32,869 bases of DNA, taken from NCBI RefSeq assembly GCF_003205235.1, contig NZ_QJSM01000034.1, positions 1 through 32,869 of the forward strand, given 5' to 3'. This DNA is from Thermoplasma sp. Kam2015 (GTDB lineage Archaea; Thermoplasmatota; Thermoplasmata; Thermoplasmatales; Thermoplasmataceae). A program made the position numbers and the translations under genes. How positions within the stretch are numbered: the first letter of the stretch is position 1; the number at the start of each line of letters is the position of its first letter. Below, piece after piece: positions 1,450 to 11,265 of this stretch. The notes beneath the pieces were generated by a model. The model was not told the origin of the DNA and did not search any database. It saw only the letters and a program-made list of their open reading frames with translations.

Positions 1450-1899
1450 ATGTCTCTCGTTGTAACAGACGTGCTGAAATACTATGAGCCAGAAATAAAT
1501 GACGATCGCATTTCAAAGCATTATATAACCGCATCCAGAAAGGTTCTTGGACAAGCGTATGGACTTCAGAATAAGATGATGGTTGTCGGAAAACTTATGG
1601 ATGTATCTGTGGTTCCGGAAAGAGAGAAAATAACTGAAACAGCTGTCCCTGGTAGAGATAGGCTCGTAGGTACCAAGCTAGAAGCCTATTTCTTTACTGC
1701 CAACGGAAGTGAGCGGGATTACCTCTTTTTCTCGTCCAAGTTCAGTCGCATACTCACTGAATACGCCATTTTCCCTGACGAATATGAGGTCAAAGTTGAA
1801 TTTATCTATGTTCAGAAGAAAATAGGAAAGATCAAACTGTATACAAAGGGAACGGTAATGGATAGTTACAAGAGCACGGAGGGTGAGAACGTTGGATGA
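1450..1899 (+). CDS. Uncharacterised 149-aa protein coupled to the Vps4-like ATPase
   Basis: I do not recognise this family. The protein is soluble, with no signal peptide or membrane segment. The middle and C-terminal part alternates hydrophobic and charged residues (EAYFFTANGSERDYLFFSS, EVKVEFIYVQKKIGKIKLYTKG), which suggests a mainly beta-strand domain after an N-terminal helix. Its last 8 nt overlap the start of the AAA ATPase gene if that starts at the TTG at 1892, and the ATPase ribosome binding site GGAGG (1878-1882) lies inside this gene. The two are therefore probably translated from one mRNA at linked levels. A role as adaptor, regulator or substrate of the ATPase is inferred from gene order only. 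Confidence 0.7.
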   Translation: MSLVVTDVLKYYEPEINDDRISKHYITASRKVLGQAYGLQNKMMVVGKLMDVSVVPEREKITETAVPGRDRLVGTKLEAYFFTANGSERDYLFFSSKFSRILTEYAIFPDEYEVKVEFIYVQKKIGKIKLYTKGTVMDSYKSTEGENVG

Positions 1900-3010
1900 A
1901 GCCGATGAGAAAATAGATAAGGCAACGAGATTATTGCAGGGAGGTATTAATGAGGAATCGCGTGGCCATAAGGACAAGGCTAAAGAGTATTATTTCGCTG
2001 CCTACAGGCTGATGCTAGAAGCTGCAAATGCCTCACCTCCGGATTTGAAGAAGAAGAGACTGGATCAGTGCAATATAATTCTGAATGCATATCAGCGGGT
2101 TAATGTGAACACAGAGCCACTACGTGAAAAAGAAGGAGACGATAGATTATCAGAGGGGGAAGCCCTCTTAGAGGAAATAGGTCTAGAAAAACCGGAGATC
2201 CCAAAGGTTACATTCGAAGACGTTGCAGGATTAGAAGATGTTAAGAATGAGATACTGGGAAAGATCGTGTATCCGATGAAATTCAAGGAGCTATCCCAGG
2301 AGTACAATATACAATTTGGTGGAGGAATGCTTCTTTATGGCCCGCCAGGGACAGGTAAGACCTTCATAGTGAAGGCGATCGCAAACGAGGTTAGAGCCAG
2401 GTTCATAAATGTAAATCCCGCAAGTCTTTACAGCCAATGGTTCGGCATGTTTGAAAAGAACATATCCAAGCTTTTCAGGGCAGCAGCACTGCTCTCTCCA
2501 TCAATAATATTTTTTGATGAAATAGACGCGCTTGTGCCAAAGAGGGATACATCAAATTCAGATGCAGCAAAGCGAGGAGTCGCACAGCTACTGAATGAGG
2601 TCGGTGGTATAAATTCTCAGAAGAACAAGAATCTTTTCATAATTGCAGCAACAAACAATCCCTGGGAGATTGACGAGGCCATGCTGAGACCTGGCAGATT
2701 TGACATAAAGATCTACGTCCCGCCTCCAGATATTGTGGCTAGAAAGAAGATATTCCAACTGAACATGGCAAAGGTCAAGCAGGCTGGGAATATAGATTAT
2801 GATCTTCTTGCACAGCAGACCGAAGGGTACAGTGGCGCTGATATAGAATTCATATGCAAGAAGGCAAGTCAGAATGTTTTCATGGAGGCTGTGAAGACTG
2901 GTAAACAGAGAACCGTTGAGACAAGAGATCTGCTGGACGTGATCGGAAGTATCAAACCATCCATAGATGCTGAGCTTCTCTCAAGATACCTGGAATTCAG
3001 CGGCCTATGA
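1892..3010 (+). CDS. MIT-domain AAA ATPase, Vps4/CdvC-like
   Basis: A single-ring AAA ATPase of 372 residues. Residues 1-75 form a charged helical region with the pattern of a MIT three-helix bundle, followed by a linker and an AAA module. The module has Walker A GPPGTGKT at 150-157, Walker B IIFFDEID at 205-212, pore-loop aromatics in SQWFGMF around 183, sensor-1 Asn in AATNNP near 255, and arginine-finger motif RPGRFD at 266-271. A C-terminal helix (SRYLEFSGL) follows. MIT plus one AAA domain is the architecture of Vps4/CdvC, which disassembles ESCRT-III polymers; proteasomal ATPases have a different N-terminus. The frame opens at a GTG at 1883, but GGAGG at 1878-1882 is spaced 9 nt from the TTG at 1892 and abuts the GTG, so TTG is preferred. 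An ESCRT-III-like protein lies at 8059-8700. Confidence 0.85.
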   Translation: MDEADEKIDKATRLLQGGINEESRGHKDKAKEYYFAAYRLMLEAANASPPDLKKKRLDQCNIILNAYQRVNVNTEPLREKEGDDRLSEGEALLEEIGLEKPEIPKVTFEDVAGLEDVKNEILGKIVYPMKFKELSQEYNIQFGGGMLLYGPPGTGKTFIVKAIANEVRARFINVNPASLYSQWFGMFEKNISKLFRAAALLSPSIIFFDEIDALVPKRDTSNSDAAKRGVAQLLNEVGGINSQKNKNLFIIAATNNPWEIDEAMLRPGRFDIKIYVPPPDIVARKKIFQLNMAKVKQAGNIDYDLLAQQTEGYSGADIEFICKKASQNVFMEAVKTGKQRTVETRDLLDVIGSIKPSIDAELLSRYLEFSGL

Positions 3011-3118
3011 TCAATAAGGTAATCAATCGCATAAGGTTTCTAATTTAAAAGTAAATTATTAGACGCTGAGCATTAAATATATAAAAAGGCCTCTCATCAT
3101 TCAGTTCTATACTCTAGG

Positions 3119-3586
3119 TCAATTAACGGAAAATCCCTCGTCATCCTTTCTGAGAAGACCTGAATAAACGCCCCATTCAATGAGTATGACCTCAAGATCA
3201 TGGTTACCGGATGGCGAATTGAATGTCTGTACTCCTTCCTGATTCAGAGATTCAAGCAATTGATCCAGATCGAAATGCCCAAGCCTAACTGCAGTCCTGA
3301 AAGGTTCTATGTTTTTAAGTGATTCTCTGATTATCTCTTTCCTCCGCTTTATCCCTGATTTGACATACTCCCTTCCCTTCTCGGTTATTATTATGTCACC
3401 TGACTCAGCAGAGACGAAGCCTAGATTGGAGGCCGTATACACTATGGGCATAAGATCGTCTATATCAACTTCCATCTCTTTCTCAAGCCTGTAAAGATCG
3501 GTTTTTCCATCAAATATATTATTCATAACGTACAATAATCCCACGAGATCAGCGATCCTCGCATTGGGGTCAACGACTTCAGTCAT
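3119..3586 (-). CDS. AAA-associated-domain protein (detached C-terminal domain of NitT/TauT-type ABC ATPases)
   Basis: A 155-residue soluble protein that resembles the AAA-associated C-terminal domain (AAA_assoc_C type). It has an N-terminal ADLVGLLYVMNNIFDGKTDLYRL, a winged-helix-like IITEKGREYV, a central RRKEIIRESL helix, and a tail of the form VILIEWGVYSGLL-DDE. In many bacteria this domain is fused to the C-terminus of the ATPase of NitT/TauT-like transporters. Here it is a separate gene next to a permease and ATPase that lack it. It has its own TATA element at 3608-3617, 27 nt before the ATG at 3586, so it may be transcribed apart from the transporter. The winged-helix character suggests regulation of transporter or transcription, but this is inference. 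Confidence 0.65.
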   Translation of the reverse strand: MTEVVDPNARIADLVGLLYVMNNIFDGKTDLYRLEKEMEVDIDDLMPIVYTASNLGFVSAESGDIIITEKGREYVKSGIKRRKEIIRESLKNIEPFRTAVRLGHFDLDQLLESLNQEGVQTFNSPSGNHDLEVILIEWGVYSGLLRKDDEGFSVN

Positions 3587-3607
3587 CGTTAGTTAATGCT
3601 TAGCATA

Positions 3608-3617
3608 ATATTAAAAG
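3608..3617 (-). promoter_or_regulatory. TATA box of the AAA-associated-domain gene
   Basis: CTTTTAATAT on the minus strand, centred about 27 nt from the ATG at 3586. It lies in the short gap after the permease gene. Confidence 0.45.
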
Positions 3618-3660
3618 TGTTCTATTTGACATAAGTATGTGCGTCGTATCGCAAACCATC

Positions 3661-5286
3661 TCAGGCAGCGAATACTCCTTCCTCTGCAACATATCTCTTT
3701 CGAGCAAGATCCATCATCCTTCTTGTGAAGATGATCGAGTATATTGCAACAACTATGCCGAACAAGAATGAACCCCATGCGGCCATTGCTATGTTCCCAA
3801 CATTGGTCTCTATATCGATGAATTTCATCAATCCGTAATGAACACTTAGGTTTGTTCCCGGTATTATATCAGGCCAGTATTCGCCTATCATCAGACCACC
3901 CCACGCGCTGTTTATCGTAGATGATATGCCAGATATGAGATACGGGAAAGTACCCGGTAGTATTATACTCCTCATCCTTCTAAAATATCCCATGTTGAGA
4001 TTCTTCATGACCTCAAAATATTCCGACGGAAGAGCCTTCACGCCCATCCAGAAGGAATAGAATATGTAATAGAATGTGCTCACGAAGCCCAATGCAAGAA
4101 CGTAGAATTCATCAGTGAACGGCCCAAGCACAGAATGTATAGCAGTAAAACTTGCCCCGAATATGAAGGGAAAATATATAGGTGGAGGATATGCACTCAG
4201 GGTTTGTATTATCGGCACGCCAATACCCTCGGCTCGTGAATGCATGGCCAGATAATAGCCTAGAAATATGGCTATCACAAAAGATATAGCCAATATCACT
4301 CCCACCCGTACATAATCATACAGAAGATAGAGAAGTATCTTAGGCGTGACAGAGAATAGATGGATCCATTCGTTATGAGAAACCGAAATTATGAGATCGG
4401 CGCTAGAATATATTATGAGGCCGAGGATCGTGAAACCTATGGCTATGCTAGAATATCTGCTTATCTTCTCCCGTCGCATTTCACGCTTCTCGAAGACCTC
4501 AGGGGGCCTTGACATGACCCTAGATCTATAGTATCCCGCTAATCTTGAAAGTGGATTTCTGGCAACAACTGAGAGCAGCCTGGTGGTCTGCTTTACATTA
4601 AGGCGCCCCCTCCTTATTATAGGCGCATCGGTATCAACTGTATATTTCGACACGGCATACCTGCTGAACTCCCTCAGCCCGAGTATTATAATTATTATGA
4701 CAAGAGCGAGTATCAATAACGCCATATAAATGAGCCTTATCTTATCACTCGCAGCAAGCGAATCCAGAACCGTGCCTATACCAAAAGTCTGGTATGTATG
4801 TACTCCGACGCTGAACACTTCGCTAACAGTTATGTAGAAAAACCCATCGGAAACGCTTGGGAACAGGTTTGCGGCGATCCTAGGATATGAAAATGGAATG
4901 AATATTCTTCTCATCTTTGTAAAAAACGACATCTGATAGTTCTCGGCAACTTCAAGCATCTCCCGGGGAACTGTCTTAAACGCCTGGTATTCACCCATCC
5001 ATATGTTCCAGACCACGGCGGTAAAGACAAGAAAATCAGCAGCCATCTCAACCCCGAGTGGACCGCCGATCCTCGTCACAAATATGATCAAGACTATCGG
5101 GAAGAATGAAATAACTGGAACTGATTCGAATACCTCGATGATCGAGATATAAATATTTTCAAATATTTTCCCCTTTATGGCCGCATAGGCAAGAAACCAG
5201 CCCGTTACTATTGATATCAGTATGAGGCCAAGAACCCTACCGGCAGTCGCAAGAGCGGCCAGCGTGATGAGAAGGATCTCGTTCAT
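3661..5286 (-). CDS. ABC transporter permease, two fused permease domains (NitT/TauT type)
   Basis: An inner-membrane permease of 541 residues, about twice the usual 250-270 for one NitT/TauT permease. There are two homologous halves, each with about six membrane spans and an EAA-type loop that docks on the ATPase: the first around EVAENYQMSFFTKMRRIFIPFSYP, the second around EVMKNLNMGYFRRMRSIILPGTFP. The halves are joined by a basic cytoplasmic linker (RNPLSRLAGYYRSR...EKREMRREK). A single chain can thus supply the whole transmembrane pore. The start overlaps the ATPase stop by 4 nt. No substrate-binding protein gene is in the window, so the substrate is unknown. NitT/TauT systems carry nitrate, sulfonates, or the thiamin precursor HMP. 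Confidence 0.85.
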   Translation of the reverse strand: MNEILLITLAALATAGRVLGLILISIVTGWFLAYAAIKGKIFENIYISIIEVFESVPVISFFPIVLIIFVTRIGGPLGVEMAADFLVFTAVVWNIWMGEYQAFKTVPREMLEVAENYQMSFFTKMRRIFIPFSYPRIAANLFPSVSDGFFYITVSEVFSVGVHTYQTFGIGTVLDSLAASDKIRLIYMALLILALVIIIIILGLREFSRYAVSKYTVDTDAPIIRRGRLNVKQTTRLLSVVARNPLSRLAGYYRSRVMSRPPEVFEKREMRREKISRYSSIAIGFTILGLIIYSSADLIISVSHNEWIHLFSVTPKILLYLLYDYVRVGVILAISFVIAIFLGYYLAMHSRAEGIGVPIIQTLSAYPPPIYFPFIFGASFTAIHSVLGPFTDEFYVLALGFVSTFYYIFYSFWMGVKALPSEYFEVMKNLNMGYFRRMRSIILPGTFPYLISGISSTINSAWGGLMIGEYWPDIIPGTNLSVHYGLMKFIDIETNVGNIAMAAWGSFLFGIVVAIYSIIFTRRMMDLARKRYVAEEGVFAA

Positions 5287-6095
5287 ATCTTTCTCACCTT
5301 AGGTGGCGTAAGATAGTTATAGAGAGTATCCAGTATCTGATTGAACTCTTCACTTCTCGGATTCCTTGGCCTAGGCAGATCCACATGAACCTTCCCAATC
5401 ACGGTGGCCGGAACATTGTTAAGCACGTATATCTCATCGGCCAGCTCCACAACCTCAGTTAAATTGTGCGAAACCAGAACAACACCCTTCAGTGGAGTGT
5501 CAGGACTGAAGAGTATATTGTATATATCCTGTCTGAGACCTTCTGCCGTCAACTCATCAAGATGGGCAAATGGCTCATCCATAAGAAAGACGAGAGGACT
5601 TGCAGCCAGAGCTCTGGCAATGGCAACTCTCTGCCTCATTCCACCGCTCATCTCCTTTGGGTATAGATCTTCGAACCCCTGCAGCCCCACAGTCTCAAGA
5701 GCGTTCCTGGCGGCCTTTTCTGCCTCCTCATCCGAAACATTCCTTACCTTGAGGGACAGCATTACATTCTCCAGTGCCGTTAACCAAGGGAATGTCACTA
5801 TGGATTGATGTATTAAGATGATGTCTGGGGTGGGCCTCTTAATCTGCTTACCGAACAGATAAACGGCTCCTTTGTCAGGTTTCAGGAATCCGCCGAGTAT
5901 CCTCAAAAGCGTCGATTTACCTATACCAGATGGCCCAACTATGGCAACAAATTCGTTCTGGCCTACATCTATATTCACATCCTCAAATACCTTATACCCA
6001 TTCTCATAAGAAAAATCGATCCCAACCGCACTCAGGACGTACTGGGCAGCTCTGGCTCGTTGCATTGCATTATCCTTAATGAGATCCTCGTCCAT
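5283..6095 (-). CDS. ABC transporter ATP-binding protein (NitT/TauT type)
   Basis: A 270-residue nucleotide-binding subunit with a full set of motifs (numbered from the ATG at 6095): Walker A GPSGIGKST at 54-62, Q-loop HQS near 97, signature MSGGMRQR at 149-156, Walker B FLMDEP near 170-175, D-loop AHLD and H-loop VSHN. It powers the fused permease encoded immediately downstream (ATGA overlap). The frame opens at a GTG at 6104, but AGGTGATG just upstream of the ATG at 6095 pairs well with the 16S tail at proper spacing, so the start at 6095 is preferred. The C-terminus ends soon after the ATPase core, without the AAA-associated domain, which is encoded separately at 3119-3586. Confidence 0.88.
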   Translation of the reverse strand: MDEDLIKDNAMQRARAAQYVLSAVGIDFSYENGYKVFEDVNIDVGQNEFVAIVGPSGIGKSTLLRILGGFLKPDKGAVYLFGKQIKRPTPDIILIHQSIVTFPWLTALENVMLSLKVRNVSDEEAEKAARNALETVGLQGFEDLYPKEMSGGMRQRVAIARALAASPLVFLMDEPFAHLDELTAEGLRQDIYNILFSPDTPLKGVVLVSHNLTEVVELADEIYVLNNVPATVIGKVHVDLPRPRNPRSEEFNQILDTLYNYLTPPKVRKI

Positions 6096-6200
6096 GGACA
6101 TCACCTGCAGTGAAACAGTGAAATTCCCCCGATCATGAGCCTAGGCTTCCAGGTTTCAGTGCAGAGATCTCAGTGAGTTTTCACGGGGCAATCACCGTAA
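6096..6200 (-). promoter_or_regulatory. Structured 5' leader of the ABC transporter operon (riboswitch candidate)
   Basis: A TATA element at 6218-6227 puts the transcript start near 6197, leaving a G/C-rich leader of about 100 nt in a genome where most first genes are leaderless. On the RNA strand, CGGUG can pair with CACUG around a GUGA-AAAC-UCAC hairpin, which is followed directly by UGAGA. Then come AAACCUG and, after about 20 nt, GGGGGAA. This order recalls the TPP riboswitch (P3, then CUGAGA, then AACCUGA, then GGGAA). However, the conserved GCGUAGG part is not visible and no P1 is found. Class therefore undecided. Confidence 0.35.
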
Positions 6201-6217
6201 CGCCCGATCCCTAGAAC

Positions 6218-6227
6218 CTATATAAAG
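6218..6227 (-). promoter_or_regulatory. TATA box of the ABC transporter operon
   Basis: CTTTATATAG on the minus strand. It lies about 125 nt before the ATPase start, which is why a long leader is inferred. Confidence 0.5.
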
Positions 6228-6253
6228 ACTGTTTTACATATGACGCGCTTTTA

Positions 6254-7225
6254 TTATGACTTGTTTGATAGAATGAATATATCGTTGACCACAGCTCCGG
6301 CAGTTTCATAAGGTCCATCTGATATATCACTGACATTCACCGTACCATTATTGTCCGTTATAATCTGGTAACCTAAACCATCTATGTCTATGTGCCTAAG
6401 AAAATCATCTTCCGACAATGATGCAATCCTGGATATGGCTACAGGCTTACCGTTATCTTCATAAACTTCAGTTATCAGGCGATCATTTTCACCATATGGA
6501 AGTTCTTTAACACCTTCATATCTTACATCTTTCAGAGTATAAGTGGTTCCAAATAGGCGGTTTACAAGTATAACGCTTTTCCTTCCAGCGTCTAGTCCTT
6601 TGAGGTCGTCCTGAGGATTTCTTTCGGCTATACCCTTCCTTATGGCTTCATCGACGACCTGATCCAGCTTTGCACCTCTCGCCATATTTCTTATAACATA
6701 GTTGATGGTTGAACTCACTATTCCTCTGAATCTAATCACTCTGGACGGAATTATGGAATAATCCAGAATGCTGAAAAGTGGAACACCACCGGCAACTGTC
6801 GCTTCGTATCGTATCTTTCTGGAATATTTTTTGGCCGAGTCCATTATATCTTTCCATCTGTTTGCCAGACCTGATTTATTGGCCGTAACAACATCGAGAC
6901 CGTTTTGAAATGCCATCTTGTACAGATCAGCTTCGCGGGATCCGTCCCTTGATGCAGGTGTGCAGTCAACAAGAATATCTGCTCTTTCCTTCAAAAGTTC
7001 CGCAACATCTATTTCGGCATTGTTTGATACTCTGCCATTTAACTCCTTATTCCTTATAATATCCTGAATATTCAGGTTTTTCCCACTAACTGAACTGTGA
7101 GAATCAGATACGCCAACCAGCCGGACATTAAGACCACCGTTTCTCTCGTTGTTAGTCTGAAGGATCCTTAGGACGTTAAGCCCAACGTTTCCGACACCCA
7201 TGAGTATAACTTTGATCTCTTTCAT
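6254..7225 (-). CDS. hom: Homoserine dehydrogenase
   Basis: A 323-residue NAD(P)-dependent enzyme that reduces aspartate semialdehyde to homoserine, on the way to threonine and methionine. The N-terminal Rossmann fold has GVGNVG at 10-15. The catalytic region shows VDCTP, VVTANKSGLA (Lys117) and EATVAGGVPLFSIL, and the substrate-binding region reads RNPQDDLKGLDAGRK near 202-216. There is no C-terminal ACT domain, so the short form should lack the threonine-binding regulatory domain found in many bacterial enzymes. It stands alone, with a TATA element at 7249-7258 and an ATG at 7225, consistent with a leaderless mRNA. Pathway neighbours (aspartokinase, homoserine kinase) are not in the window. 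Confidence 0.92.
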   Translation of the reverse strand: MKEIKVILMGVGNVGLNVLRILQTNNERNGGLNVRLVGVSDSHSSVSGKNLNIQDIIRNKELNGRVSNNAEIDVAELLKERADILVDCTPASRDGSREADLYKMAFQNGLDVVTANKSGLANRWKDIMDSAKKYSRKIRYEATVAGGVPLFSILDYSIIPSRVIRFRGIVSSTINYVIRNMARGAKLDQVVDEAIRKGIAERNPQDDLKGLDAGRKSVILVNRLFGTTYTLKDVRYEGVKELPYGENDRLITEVYEDNGKPVAISRIASLSEDDFLRHIDIDGLGYQIITDNNGTVNVSDISDGPYETAGAVVNDIFILSNKS

Positions 7226-7248
7226 CCGGGCGAATACCGTATAGTAAG

Positions 7249-7258
7249 ATATAAAATT
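7249..7258 (-). promoter_or_regulatory. TATA box of the homoserine dehydrogenase gene
   Basis: ATTTTATATC on the minus strand, centred about 28 nt from the ATG at 7225. Confidence 0.45.
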
Positions 7259-7369
7259 TTCAACAAACTTGAAAAATGAACCATAATCAACACTATGAAT
7301 ATTGATTCATGATTTTAAGTTTGGAAAATGCAGATCCCATAACGTCTACGCTTCATACATATACGACAA

Positions 7370-7379
7370 GTTTAAATAG
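7370..7379 (+). promoter_or_regulatory. TATA box of the small membrane protein gene
   Basis: GTTTAAATAG, centred about 27 nt before the ATG at 7401, as for a leaderless transcript. Confidence 0.5.
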
Positions 7380-7400
7380 ACCCATTATGTTAATCATTTA

Positions 7401-7709
7401 ATGGTAGAACTAACGGGCTATATCCTTCTCATTGTTGCCCTCATCGATGGTTTGCTATTCGGACTGGCCATTAAAAAAGGCGTCACATCATTTATACTCA
7501 TAGTGATTGCACTCATCCTCTCCACATACGTAGGCTTTTCATTCGCACCCCATGTATCCATAACAAATACGACGGCGAGACTTCTGCCGTATATAAAAAC
7601 CTATGCATCGCAGATAACAAATGATATATCGATAGGTTTCGGTGGGTCCCTTTCCCTCACAGTGATACTGTTCCTAATAGGCCTGGCCGTAGGGCTCTGG
7701 AAGGGATAA
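7401..7709 (+). CDS. Small three-span membrane protein, function unknown
   Basis: A 102-residue protein with three clear hydrophobic segments: residues about 5-24, 30-50 and 80-99. Between the second and third lies a loop of about 30 residues (APHVSITNTTARLLPYIKTYASQITNDISIGF). The last span is Gly-rich (GFGGSL...LIGLAVGLWKG). I do not recognise a family. The gene stands alone between divergent homoserine dehydrogenase and a 350-nt gap. The promoter spacing supports both the ATG start and real expression. It could be an accessory subunit of a membrane complex, but nothing nearby indicates which. Confidence 0.65.
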   Translation: MVELTGYILLIVALIDGLLFGLAIKKGVTSFILIVIALILSTYVGFSFAPHVSITNTTARLLPYIKTYASQITNDISIGFGGSLSLTVILFLIGLAVGLWKG

Positions 7710-8058
7710 GAAGCCGAACAGATAACGCGGGTCGTACTCATTTGAGCCATATATGATATAAAATTTTATTCGTGAATAGATTTTGTAGGAAATAGAAGCA
7801 ATGTGAAGCCATAGCAAGAAAACCCTTACACCTTTATTATGAGATTTTTAAATATTATCAGATAAAAGAATATACAACATATCGCGAGAATAGGATTATC
7901 CTGATAAACCTCTAAATAGATAATAAGGTTCTTCGGTATTGGTACTATTCTATTAGGATAAAAACAACGCTAATATCACCTAGAAAATACAGTGGGTATA
8001 CCGGTACATGCAAACGTCCAACAGGTCCAGTATCCCAGGACTTCATTTTGGGAAAGGT
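7710..8058. other. Non-coding gap of about 350 nt
   Basis: An A/T-rich stretch between two convergent genes. No open frame with protein-like composition was found on either strand, and no tRNA or clear strong hairpin was seen. Runs such as the A/T stretch near 7838-7856 may act as terminators. I see nothing else in it. Confidence 0.4.
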
Positions 8059-8700
8059 TCATTTGATCTGATCGTCATTGTTCTTAACGCCGCCAAGTGA
8101 CTTCAGGAGATTTTCTAGATCTTTATCCGTGCTGGCTGACTCGGATGGCTCCTGAACAGCAGGCTTTTCCGATGCTTTCTGCCCTTCACCTGAAAGTGAA
8201 GACAATATCTTCTCAACGCTCTCTGGATTGTATTCTCCCTTCTGATTGACAGCGGTAGTTATCTGATCAAGCTGGCTGCTCAGCCTCTCCTGTATCTGAT
8301 CCGATGCAGTGATTATCTTCTCAACATTCTGCTGCATCTGTATCACCTGCTTCTCAGTAAGCTGGCTCTTGAGCAGATCTTCTGATCCTTCTTTCAAGGA
8401 GGCCCATACTTTCTTGGTTGTGTCGGCAAACTGCAGATTAAGATCTATATTTTCAAGAAACAGTTTGTAATCCTTCAGTCCCCTTATGGCACTGTCCAGA
8501 GAAATTATGTTAGAAGCAAAAACCCTTGCCTTTTCTATGTTCCCATCCTTTAACGATATCTTGGCGTTTTGTATATTCATATCCCTGTTCTTTTCATACT
8601 GTCTGATTGCCCTGTCTATGTCAGATTTCCATTTGCTTATCCTGGATCTTCTCTCAAGCATTTTCTCTTCTTCGCTCTTTCCAAATTTGAATAATACCAT
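8059..8700 (-). CDS. ESCRT-III/Snf7-like (CdvB-type) protein with C-terminal MIM1-like motifs
   Basis: A soluble, highly helical protein of 213 residues. After a short amphipathic N-terminus (VLFKFGKSEEEKM) a basic helix runs RRSRISKWKSDIDRAIRQYEK. Then comes AKISLKDGNIEKARVFASN and a long helix with LKDYKLFLENIDLNLQFA. This 'A-x-L-x-x-G-x-x-x-x-A-R-x-x-A' hairpin pattern is that of the Snf7 core of ESCRT-III. A low-complexity linker follows, ending in DLENLLKSLGG; D192, L195, L199 and L202 fit the MIM1 pattern (D/E)xxLxxRLxxL, with Leu in place of Arg. A similar helix with V162, I165, L166 and L169 precedes it. MIM1 motifs bind MIT domains of Vps4, one of which is encoded at 1892-3010. The ATG at 8700 is chosen because GGAG at 8710-8707 is 6 nt upstream and abuts the ATG at 8706. 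Confidence 0.75.
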   Translation of the reverse strand: MVLFKFGKSEEEKMLERRSRISKWKSDIDRAIRQYEKNRDMNIQNAKISLKDGNIEKARVFASNIISLDSAIRGLKDYKLFLENIDLNLQFADTTKKVWASLKEGSEDLLKSQLTEKQVIQMQQNVEKIITASDQIQERLSSQLDQITTAVNQKGEYNPESVEKILSSLSGEGQKASEKPAVQEPSESASTDKDLENLLKSLGGVKNNDDQIK

Positions 8701-8838
8701 GATCATCTCCTTCGATCTTTTACTTTCTTCTCCCTTTAAAATATTAATTTAATGTGAGATATAAACTTTTATGTGTATTCCACTTTTTATCTATGATCCC
8801 AATTTTTTTATGATCTTCTCGTAAATCCAAAAACATCA

Positions 8839-9804
8839 TCATATGCTGCTGGAATAGACGTCTTTTACCGCCTTAAGATCACGCAGTGCAAGGTATGGAT
8901 CGAATGGGACAGGAGAATCGTCAAGCACGCTCTTCAAAAAACCAGAAACTTCGTCAAAGAATATGTCATGTTTACCCAGATCAATTAACGAACCGTTGAG
9001 TATAGGATCACCATATGCACGTTTCCCCTTTGGTGTTTCGAAATTGTTTGGTTTGGTAGTAATATCCTCAACTATGCTCCCTTCGGTTCCCACTATCTCA
9101 AATGATGGTAACAACGGCGGGTAGGGATAACCCCATGAATAGAAAAATACCCCGTTTGATCCGTTCCTGAACTTAAATAACGCCTCGACCGTGTCCGGTT
9201 CCTCTATCGATGGTACAGACTTATAAAAGTTTGAACGAATGGATACATATTCGCCGCTAAGATTCAGCAACGTATCGATAAAATGTATGCCGCCATCGAT
9301 CAGTGGCCCACCGCCCATTATTGAGGCCTGCGATCTCCATCCATGCCAGTTGTATTTCCTCTGATCCCTTATTATTATTGTATGCGCTGATCCGATCTTT
9401 CCAGAATCCATGAATTCTTTAGCTTTCCACACACTTGGATCGAAATAATACTGATCCGCAACCATCAATTTTCTTCTATATTCCTCGGAGGATCTTATCA
9501 TTTCCTGCGCGTCTTTGATCTCTGTAGCTATTGGCTTTTCCACCAGTACATGCTTCCCCAAACTCAAGGATCGAATCGTAACATCCTTGTGGAGGTTGTG
9601 TGGAAGAACAAGATCGAATATCTCCGCATCCGATTTGAATGCCTCTTCAAGAGATCCATATACCTTTTTTATGTCGTACTTGCCTTTCAACTCATTTACT
9701 ATATCCATCTTTCTCTCAGTTATCTCTATATCAATATCCGCCTTTGACCATGCTTCAATATGTCGTTTTCCAAATCCATTAAGGCCAATTATATTAACTT
9801 TCAA
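8839..9804 (-). CDS. Gfo/Idh/MocA-family oxidoreductase
   Basis: A 321-residue NAD(P)-dependent sugar or cyclitol dehydrogenase-type protein. The N-terminal Rossmann domain (IIGLNGFGKRH) is followed by the family motif EKPIATE, whose Lys is the usual catalytic residue. The C-terminal alpha/beta domain contains the substrate-site segment GGGPLIDGGIHFIDTLLNLSG, where GG-H-D is diagnostic. The substrate cannot be told. The frame opens at TTG 9810, but GAGGGA at 9816-9811 is spaced 6 nt from the TTG at 9804, so the latter is preferred (MKVNIIGLNG). A TATA element at 9851-9860 and a repeated TAACT motif at the predicted transcript start suggest a regulated gene. Confidence 0.85.
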   Translation of the reverse strand: MKVNIIGLNGFGKRHIEAWSKADIDIEITERKMDIVNELKGKYDIKKVYGSLEEAFKSDAEIFDLVLPHNLHKDVTIRSLSLGKHVLVEKPIATEIKDAQEMIRSSEEYRRKLMVADQYYFDPSVWKAKEFMDSGKIGSAHTIIIRDQRKYNWHGWRSQASIMGGGPLIDGGIHFIDTLLNLSGEYVSIRSNFYKSVPSIEEPDTVEALFKFRNGSNGVFFYSWGYPYPPLLPSFEIVGTEGSIVEDITTKPNNFETPKGKRAYGDPILNGSLIDLGKHDIFFDEVSGFLKSVLDDSPVPFDPYLALRDLKAVKDVYSSSI

Positions 9805-9824
9805 AATCAATCCCTCTGACGTCT

Positions 9825-9847
9825 AGTTAGATTAACTACAACTAACT
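9825..9847. promoter_or_regulatory. Candidate operator over the oxidoreductase transcript start
   Basis: AGTTA at 9825-9829 faces TAACT at 9833-9837, and TAACT is repeated at 9843-9847, exactly 10 bp further. With the TATA element at 9851-9860, transcription should begin near 9830, inside the motif. A bound protein would block initiation. No binder is known. Confidence 0.35.
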
Positions 9848-9850
9848 TTG

Positions 9851-9860
9851 CTTAATATAC
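9851..9860 (-). promoter_or_regulatory. TATA box of the Gfo/Idh/MocA gene
   Basis: GTATATTAAG on the minus strand. It predicts a short leader of about 25 nt carrying the GAGGGA site. Confidence 0.4.
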
Positions 9861-9886
9861 TTTTCATAGAGATACTAGGAAGTCCA

Positions 9887-10264
9887 AGCCAGCTACCTCT
9901 CGCTAAAAGCTCAGAGCTTGCAGCTGGGTGGATCAGATGAGCGAAAATAACACGCGTCACAATAGGCTGGCTGACTACAGCCCCGTCCCTGATATTGAGG
10001 GATGCAACGAAATCTGCCTCTCCCTCAAACCCACAGGAAACCCATCTGAAACTGGATAGTTCAGGTCTGTTCCTTTTACCTATGGTGTGACATACAGGGC
10101 ATTCCCTGCTGGAATTATACGGATCAATGACGATGACTGTAACGCTTATTTCCTTTGCCGTGTATCCGAAGAACTTACTTGTTTTCCATTGGGGAAGTCC
10201 GTGTATCTCATGTCCGAAGAAAGAGTTTTATTGCTTCTATCAAACACCTAACCTTTCTATAAAT
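9887..10264 (-). mobile_element. IS200/IS605-type remnant, copy A (carries a decayed tnpB 3' part)
   Basis: The element lies on the minus strand. Its right-end hairpin remnant AGCGAGAGGTAGCT is at 9891-9904, and its other end is the 60-nt block at 10193-10252 shared with copies B and C (identical or nearly so over most positions), finishing in CTATAAA. Between them lies the C-terminal part of a TnpB protein. No TnpA or other transposase is encoded in the window, so this copy is dead. Confidence 0.6.
9905..10195 (-). pseudogene. tnpB (IS605 OrfB) C-terminal fragment
   Basis: The minus strand translates as IHGLPQWKTSKFFGY, then a VTVIVIDPYNSSRECPVC segment, then a GKRNRPELSSFR segment, then VSCGFEGEADFVASLNIRDG. 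This is the zinc-ribbon and RuvC-III end of TnpB, the RNA-guided nuclease of IS200/IS605 elements. The first CxxC is intact (codons at 10101-10099 and 10092-10090). In the second, the first Cys is Trp (FRWVSC), so the zinc site is broken. The RuvC-III Asp in EADF is kept. The N-terminal two thirds of the gene are missing, and the frame runs on past the element end instead of stopping. Confidence 0.7.
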
Positions 10265-10456
10265 ATTGTAAGATCTGCTTGTTCCATCCTTCACAGCTTT
10301 GAAATTCCTTTCAACGGTTATCTCAGAAATATTTTTTAATTGAATAATGATAGAGATATTGTATAAGAAATGATGTTACAAATGCATAATAGAATAATAT
10401 CGTTCAATCTTGTATCATTTCATTAAAATATCGATATTATGGGAGTGCTGATCGAT

Positions 10457-10744
10457 TTGAACATACGACGTGTGGTGCTTGATGTTGACAAGGGCCTGAA
10501 CAGGCCAACGTTGGTTGAACTTGCTGCCGCGATAGAAAGAGTGCAGGGAGTAGAGGCAGTCAATATAATAGTGACGGAAATGGATATGGAAACTATGGGC
10601 ACAAATATAACCGTGGAAGGTACAAATATAAACTACGATGAACTGATAGAAACTATTGAAAACACTGGATCTGCCATACATTCAGTTGATGAAATTGCTG
10701 TGGGCAAAAGGCTAATAGAAAACGTGAGGAGAAATCAGAATTGA
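10457..10744 (+). CDS. DUF211 family protein
   Basis: A 95-residue protein of the archaeal DUF211 family, with a ferredoxin-like alpha/beta fold. The sequence shows IRRVVLDVDKG, RVQGVEAVNIIVTEMDMETMGTNITVEG and NTGSAIHSVDEIAVGK, all matching the family's strand-helix pattern and its closing IHS-DE-G-K motif. Function is not established. The frame opens at an ATG at 10439, but a TATA-like TTAAAATA at about 10423-10430 predicts a transcript start near 10453, and the family normally begins right at the IRR strand, so the TTG at 10457 is a likelier start. It overlaps the next gene by 4 nt, so it is probably co-translated with a VIT/CCC1-like membrane protein. Confidence 0.85.
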   Translation: MNIRRVVLDVDKGLNRPTLVELAAAIERVQGVEAVNIIVTEMDMETMGTNITVEGTNINYDELIETIENTGSAIHSVDEIAVGKRLIENVRRNQN

Positions 10745-11265
10745 GAGGGCGCATTCTCTTTTCCATAACACTTGGGCTCTCCGATGGAATAATAACATCA
10801 CTTATGATAGCTGCAGCAGCGCTCTCTTCTACCGTTTCCATAGGGCTGATCGAAGCCTTAAGGATTGGCGCTGGTTCGGCCATAGTGGGAAGTTTCAGTT
10901 TCTTCATAGCCGAGTACGCCAGATTGCGTGGTGAAATATCACGGATGTCAAGACAGCTAGCCATGGAGTCGCCGAGGAAACTCATGAGAAGCCACATCGG
11001 CATTGAAATAACTGAGGAAGCCGTGGAGGGTACTGCAATTGCTGGGCTTTCTGGTTTTCTAGGTTCAATGATCCCCCTGGCCTCTGATGCGTTATTTCCT
11101 GGATTGCATGCACTTCCATTTATAGCAGCTACAGTTGCGCTTGCCTTTCTAGGCATAGGTCTTGCAAGGTCAATTTCAGGTCATTATGCTATATGGGCAG
11201 TCGGCATGTCTGCCGTCGGCATAATAATGTCCTATATAGGCATACTTCTGCACATAGTCTCATGA
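10741..11265 (+). CDS. VIT1/CCC1-like membrane protein
   Basis: A 174-residue integral membrane protein with about five spans. The N-terminal pattern GLSDGIITSLMIAAAALSST and the following GAGSAIVGSFSFFIAEYARLRGE resemble the DG-v and SMa-gEy motifs of VIT1/CCC1 family iron/manganese transporters. The family's metal-binding cytoplasmic helix is short here, and the usual E-E-x-E pattern is only partly visible (EITEEAVEGTA), so transport of iron or manganese is a guess. It starts at a TTG at 10741 that overlaps the DUF211 stop codon (TTGA); GGAG at 10728-10731 supports that start. Most likely one operon with DUF211. Confidence 0.65.
   Translation: MRGRILFSITLGLSDGIITSLMIAAAALSSTVSIGLIEALRIGAGSAIVGSFSFFIAEYARLRGEISRMSRQLAMESPRKLMRSHIGIEITEEAVEGTAIAGLSGFLGSMIPLASDALFPGLHALPFIAATVALAFLGIGLARSISGHYAIWAVGMSAVGIIMSYIGILLHIVS

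Follow-up and report, generated by a model that had tools for sequence, protein, structure and literature searches.

Thermoplasma sp. Kam2015 encodes an ESCRT-III protein whose last helix, α6, carries a conserved MIM1-like pattern with leucine at the position of the MIM1 arginine. Its gene and that of a MIT-domain AAA ATPase form a pair belonging to a system that is already known; what is new is the conserved MIM1-like tail lacking the arginine. We consider it probable that the MIT domain of the Vps4/CdvC-type ATPase is the docking site of the ESCRT-III tail, and we hold with less confidence that this docking would use the MIM1 groove in Thermoplasma itself, because only conservation and a hand-made register point to it there. 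The conserved tail and an ancestral row of barrel, Vps4 and ESCRT-III genes speak for joint action of the two proteins in Thermoplasma. Thermoplasma is a small wall-less cell with FtsZ, and its three-gene ESCRT system is open to in vitro testing.

Makarova et al. (2024; PMC10936438) describe a minimal ESCRT system in the Thermoplasmata, in which T. acidophilum and T. volcanium have FtsZ as well as Vps4 and ESCRT-III; they do not settle its function and regard division as likely. T. acidophilum CdvB (Q9HIZ5) is listed in PMC8970359, in which MIM2 is assigned to Asgard and TACK archaea and not to Euryarchaeota, and euryarchaeal Cdv proteins are described as lacking interaction domains, so that a Cdv-like system there is called unlikely. 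MIM1-like tails are described in Asgard archaea, and the absence of MIM1 from the CdvB of Crenarchaea is read as indicating that it is functionally remote from eukaryotic ESCRT (PMC7240154); Sulfolobales CdvB uses a proline-rich MIM2 (PMC5840170). The MIM1 consensus, its Arg–Glu68 salt bridge and the α2/α3 groove of the MIT domain are set out in PMC5141497, and an aspartate at position 64 of VPS4A (L64D) prevents MIM1 binding (PMC11218997). In the literature searched, mostly outside subscription papers and in part as excerpts, we found no report of a MIM1-like tail for Thermoplasmata.

The ESCRT-III gene pair and its neighbourhood

The window, that is, the whole 32,869-nt stretch of DNA analysed, is contig 34 of a 1.79-Mb genome. 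It contains the following features (residue numbers in brackets; "sequence-only reading" refers to an earlier annotation made from the letters alone):

8059–8700, (−): ESCRT-III protein (Snf7/CdvB-like), 213 aa; from Pfam Snf7 and Foldseek, start set by alignment
8674–8700, (−): N-terminal MVLFKFGKS, kept in relatives (alignment A1); candidate membrane-insertion segment
8362–8673, (−): hairpin of α1 (10–51) and α2/3 (55–113); predicted model
8242–8355, (−): α4 (116–153); predicted model
8194–8226, (−): α5 (159–169), the first "MIM1-like" helix of the sequence-only reading; model, inside the Snf7 match
8095–8136, (−): α6 (189–202), MIM1-like, with the core D192xxL195xxL198L199xxL202 at 8095–8127; model and conservation
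1883–3010, (+): MIT-AAA ATPase, Vps4/CdvC-like, 375 aa; AAA match of 137.9 bits, alignment to the CdvC model
1883–2104, (+): MIT three-helix bundle (2–26, 30–50, 53–74); predicted model, matches to VPS4 and archaeal MIT domains
1450–1899, (+): 149-aa protein whose gene overlaps the start of Vps4, probably the β-barrel partner arCOG07400; conserved neighbour
7401–7709, (+): protein of 102 aa, a membrane protein judging by its hydropathy, and a candidate component linked to ESCRT; conserved proximity
3664–8706: five genes (permease, ABC ATPase, homoserine dehydrogenase, membrane protein, ESCRT-III) in the opposite orientation to those of genome G101; gene order and tblastn

The longest open reading frame at the ESCRT-III gene spans 8059–8706 (−) and would give 215 aa; the 213-aa product beginning at the ATG at 8700, as first proposed from sequence, is preferred because close homologues have MVLFKFGKSEEEK, or a variant thereof, as their start. 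The N-terminal segment is presumably comparable to eukaryotic N-terminal anchors. Pfam Snf7 matches the protein with 37.9 bits (cut-off 27.3), the sole Snf7 match in its genome, and the predicted model has the canonical helix order, which together uphold the original ESCRT-III identification. That reading had placed V162, I165, L166, L169, D192, L195, L199 and L202 correctly; it was also right about a Snf7-type hairpin and wrong in spelling its motif A-x-L, the actual residues being A46-x3-L50-x2-G53-x4-A58-R59-x2-A62. A scan of genome contigs gave two loci, both from metagenome-assembled genomes of Thermoplasma; in one of them the protein is identical. Searched against the sequences of solved structures, the protein gave chance-level rows (best E 0.019, an exonuclease; CHMP1B, 0.99), and neither it, the 149-aa protein nor the 102-aa membrane protein matched an NCBIfam entry.

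The model, computed from the rows of the window, L002 and L003 (two identical, the third at 92%), has a modest mean pLDDT of 67.6, with low confidence at residues 169–189, and its helices follow in the order listed above. Foldseek ranks 1–6 are all ESCRT-III (CHMP2A/CHMP3, CHMP1B and Asgard ESCRT-IIIB) with E values of 0.05–0.13, none below 0.001; the BAR-like Lsp1 comes next, at rank 7. In VIA, the model aligns with CHMP3 (3frt) at Z 9.5 and an r.m.s.d. of 2.5 Å over 124 residues, and BAR proteins reach equal or better scores (arfaptin, Z 10.3; FAM92A, Z 9.9, 3.5 Å over 152). The predicted α1–α2 hairpin followed by α3–α5 is matched by CHMP, Snf7 and CdvB chains, and by BAR proteins too. Because BAR domains score up to 10.3, the fold search supports ESCRT-III membership without proving it; membership is established by the Snf7 sequence match instead.

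The product of 1883–3010 is, judged by its sequence and predicted structure, a Vps4/CdvC-like ATPase. PF00004 matches it in one stretch, indicating a single AAA domain; Vps4_C scores 15.7 bits (cut-off 21.3), and NCBIfam CdvC, at 229.1 bits over residues 14–371, lies far under its cut-off of 650 and about level with CDC48 (232.7 bits over 105–352, likewise under cut-off). The MIT-like N terminus postulated for this protein is corroborated by a weak Pfam MIT match in the first 100 residues (E 0.0016; 19 bits, under the cut-off of 30) and by a model of those residues alone, which forms three helices (pTM 0.70) and matches the MIT domains of Vps4 (4niq; r.m.s.d. 1.3 Å over 69 columns), the Sulfolobus ATPase (2w2u; Z 11.1, 2.2 Å over 74) and MITD1, with designed and other helical bundles scoring alike in both structure lists. 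In a profile search of solved sequences, designed proteins outrank Vps4 (yeast Vps4 2v6x, E 0.049), so sequence by itself does not settle the assignment.

In G101, the gene of the 149-aa protein is followed on the same strand by those of the ATPase and ESCRT-III, and the same three-gene row is found in G093, G094, G041, G042, G043, G063, G065 and G066. This barrel–Vps4–ESCRT-III row is the ancestral gene order; the 149-aa neighbour is probably the β-barrel arCOG07400 protein, an identity that we infer from PMC10936438. ESCRT-III and Vps4 lie apart in the window because a rearrangement split this operon: in the window, G098, L003 and L002, the five-gene block from the ABC permease to ESCRT-III is reversed relative to G101, which places ESCRT-III 5 kb from Vps4 and on the opposite strand. 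The next three genes (8842–11262) are likewise reversed in place. A single clean inversion was considered and rejected; more than one event is needed because 3664–8706 and 8842–11262 are each reversed separately and the stretch of G101 showed no counterpart of the 155-aa gene. None of the 12 inverted-repeat pairs listed for 2900–9000 links the edges of the five-gene block.

Of the 38 genomes that have both ESCRT-III and MIT-Vps4, 23 encode a membrane protein of about 100 aa, like that at 7401–7709 (+) in the window, no more than 5 kb from one or the other (also at L143, L145–L148, L150, L163–L167 and L169–L171), against about 1.4% expected per genome under random placement; this count covers neither matches in ESCRT-less genomes nor a few weak or fragmentary matches and the weak Vps4 match of G014. 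The protein occurs in 77 of 117 genomes, some of them without ESCRT, on which ground we rejected it as ESCRT-specific and retain it as a candidate membrane partner. It has no family above cut-off in Pfam or NCBIfam, and we found no name for it in the Thermoplasmata clade in the available text of PMC10936438.

Among the 117 genomes of the order, Pfam Snf7 finds 21 (19 over cut-off) and the A1 profile finds ESCRT-III in 35; the MIT half of the ATPase is present in 29, the 149-aa protein in 24 and FtsZ/tubulin in 101. In a 400-genome draw of the class, the ESCRT-III profile finds 28, all within the family of the window. The window's own genome has three FtsZ/tubulin-family matches, in agreement with the coexistence of FtsZ and ESCRT noted at the outset. 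FtsZ/tubulin went unmatched in 16 of the 117 genomes (G041–G043, G060–G069, G095, G096 and the half-complete G029), and of these G041–G043 and G060–G069 have the 149-aa protein together with the MIT half in 13/13; the MIT-ATPase is retained in the FtsZ-less genera g2 and g5, which agrees with the pattern in PMC10936438.

Six FtsZ-less g5 genomes have a divergent ESCRT-III near Vps4 (L155:5397–6095 (−), L156:8952–9779 (+), L157 and L228–L230) that escaped both the Snf7 model of Pfam and the profile search of whole genomes; these proteins score 25–34 bits to A1 and, read by eye, have a degenerate tail and a lysine at the VPS4A-64 position of the ATPase. The ESCRT of the family is not always minimal, since uncultured sister genera have larger loci (L162, L163, L164, L166, L167, L168, L170 and L171) in which a HEAT-repeat protein, a Double-GTPase, two large family-less proteins and a MIT-ATPase occur in combinations near ESCRT-III; in L166, the HEAT match is weak and the Double-GTPase is PF19975 with a hydrophobic N terminus. 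A second cluster keeps one order in L165:4955–9664, L166:2490–7056, L167, L169 and L170: small membrane protein, a protein of about 196 aa, an AAA ATPase without a clear MIT, a protein of about 201 aa, type B ESCRT-III and MIT-AAA.

The MIM1-like C-terminal helix

The sequence-only reading had proposed two MIM1-like helices. The last one, 189–202, stands: it lies at the α6/MIM1 position and is conserved. We rejected the other, 159–169, which is α5; it directly follows α4, falls within the Snf7 match and has a proline at the MIM1 acid position. As had been proposed, the last helix fits the MIM1 consensus with leucine for arginine, and this pattern occurs in 18/18 rows of A1, the mean rate in shuffled tails being 0.019. 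Residue 192 is acidic, and 195, 198 and 199 are I/L/V/M, in 18/18; position 202 is I/L/V/M in 16/18 and alanine in two. Between the window and L007 (G101), 4/21 linker residues are kept and 11/13 of α6. Sequence conservation argues that the α6 pattern is more than chance, and both model and alignment put a helix with the conserved acid and leucines at the α6 position. The full consensus (D/E)xxLxxRLxxL(K/R) departs from the window tail at two residues, Leu198 for Arg and Gly203 for K/R, and we therefore call the tail MIM1-like rather than MIM1. Read by eye, it holds no MIM2 proline motif (ΦPxΦP).

In a wider set of 33 type A sequences, the paralogues of which are termed type B, 24 have the loose pattern somewhere in their last 48 residues (shuffled rate 0.063). 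Eight of these 24 matches first fall in the α5 region (L147, L152, L153, L161, L221, L222, L223 and L225); four of those eight loci also have the full pattern at α6, giving 20/33 type A by eye. By eye, the remaining 13/33 tails (g4, g6 and G050) have Gln, Lys, Asn, Gly or Ala at acid position 1, and the core I/L/V-x-x-L/I/M-L/I-x-x-I/L/M/A is kept in 33/33; the strict MIM1 pattern with a basic position 7 occurs in 0/33. Tail counts for both types take one sequence per genome apart from two type A copies of G050, leave aside G100 and the six divergent g5 proteins, and are compared with shuffles in which composition is preserved over the final 48 residues alone.

Type B ESCRT-III occurs in 16 genomes of g3, g4, g6, g9 and g10, with a type A gene alongside in 14. 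Its tails match [DE]xx[LIVM]xx[RK][LIVM]xx[LIVM] in 7/16 (shuffled rate 0.011), as in the EDKLKERLRKL of G086. A MIT-AAA gene directly follows type B in eight genomes (G048, G049, G051, G053, G055, G058, G059 and G072). G052, G056 and G057 have type B proteins without the tail motif and no AAA gene in the downstream stretch covered (about 7, 4 and 8 kb); upstream in G052 and G057 lies another AAA gene without a clear MIT. The type B MIT query is too divergent to establish whole-genome absence, having missed G048, G049, G051 and G053, which have one. G082 (L161:6059–8385 (+)) has two tandem MIT-AAA genes, and one ESCRT-III of each type within the same 14 kb.

Tail–MIT residue pairing and the role of the tail

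The register of MIT α3 to VPS4A was set by hand, hhalign to human VPS4A covering only α1–α2, and structural end points vary between VPS4A entries. In this register, a tail Arg/Lys at position 7 goes with Asp/Glu at the MIT VPS4A-68 position in 7/7 pairs, all of them type B; pairs without Arg/Lys at position 7 have an acidic VPS4A-68 in 4/27 (Glu68 in G065 and G047, Asp68 in type A of G053 and of G052). Fisher's test gives p 6e-5, which is not to be taken as a probability because the rows are related and the seven basic pairs come from g4 and g6 alone. G051 has Asn in its type B tail and Gln in its MIT; the window has Leu at tail position 7 and Gln at MIT 68, and the 68 position of its relatives is mostly uncharged or basic.

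The 34 hand-read pairs leave aside G100 (ESCRT-III the same as in G000), G097 (frame-split ATPase), G050 and G084 (MIT unrecognisable by eye) and the six g5 genomes (divergent ESCRT-III). Also dropped were type B of G082 (Gly7 with Glu68, which would count against the pairing), of G086 (Arg7, without a MIT-AAA next to it; a MIT-AAA with Glu68 lies about 9 kb off), of G047 (no ATPase in the stretch) and of G052, G056 and G057 (no motif), as well as type A of G049, G051, G056, G057 and G058 and the second type A copy in G050, whose partner ATPases lie outside the stretch. Type A pairing in g4, g6 and g10 is inferred, since the genes are several kilobases apart and each genome has more than one such ATPase. 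The VPS4A-64 position of the type A partner ATPase is A, E, D or Q in g3, g4, g6 and g10, so the MIM1 groove may go unused there, with the tail kept.

Tentatively, we propose that MIT ATPases of the Thermoplasmatales recognize ESCRT-III in a MIM1-type manner, through canonical Arg/Lys–Asp/Glu contacts in one paralogue pair and through a hydrophobic, salt-bridge-free contact in the Thermoplasma pair. The Snf7 core (α1–α5) would polymerize on the membrane, probably with the N-terminal insertion segment; beyond a disordered linker, α6 would serve as a MIM1-like tag docking on the ATPase MIT domain, possibly in its groove, and the Vps4/CdvC-type unfoldase would then pull ESCRT-III subunits out of the polymer, perhaps in aid of division, vesicle formation or repair. 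In the Thermoplasma type, a leucine stands where MIM1 has its arginine, and its expected partner on the MIT domain of the window is Gln in the hand-set register. If this is true, MIM1-type recognition extends beyond Asgard archaea and eukaryotes, and MIM1 is either older than Asgard or was invented repeatedly. The tail and MIT variants form a natural set for dissecting MIT–MIM1 recognition.

The same helix could instead act mainly as an autoinhibitory latch on its own hairpin, Vps4 being recruited through another site. In closed CHMP3, the C-terminal helix packs on its own hairpin and is autoinhibitory, and our model aligns with CHMP3 3frt over residues 10–202; α6 conservation would be expected of a latch as well, which would also suit the polar VPS4A-64 residue of some partner MITs. 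We regard this as improbable as the main role, given that ATPase contact better explains both the type B position-7/68 pairing and the loss of the tail motif in type B proteins with no MIT-AAA gene downstream; the latch and docking roles do not exclude each other. We give a similarly low standing to the idea that the tail binds another partner (the 149-aa neighbour at 1450–1899 or the small membrane protein) or another MIT groove (α1/α3). Both neighbours are conserved and the residues at the MIM1 groove of the MIT are not uniform, yet the hydrophobic positions of the tail fit MIM1 and, by eye, it has no MIM2 proline motif; moreover, the six g5 genomes have the 149-aa neighbour and the ATPase alongside their degenerate tails and Lys at VPS4A-64. 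Helical proteins often end in an amphipathic stretch, and α6 might on that account be a chance helix without function; a pattern present in 18/18 rows against about 2% per shuffled tail, adjoining a fast-changing linker, makes this very unlikely. We accordingly favour docking of the tail on the MIT domain.

Relation to known systems

The Vps4, ESCRT-III and barrel genes and the coexistence with FtsZ are those of the minimal ESCRT system of Thermoplasmata (PMC10936438), and the Thermoplasma genes are that same system; the available text of that paper mentions no MIM for the clade, whereas the ESCRT-III of the window has a MIM1-like tail. With the eukaryotic Vps2/Did2 class (Did2 E192xxL195xxR198L199xxL202, PMC5141497), the window protein shares the helix position, the acidic start and the leucine spacing; it differs in having Leu for Arg and, in the hand-set register, a partner MIT with Gln for Glu68. 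The Asgard Vps2/24/46 proteins (PMC7240154) are likewise archaeal ESCRT-III with a leucine-rich C-terminal helix, from a different phylum. The Sulfolobales CdvB/CdvC pair shares the ESCRT-III core and the MIT-AAA partner, but its CdvB has MIM2 and a C-terminal winged helix, neither of which is seen in the window protein.
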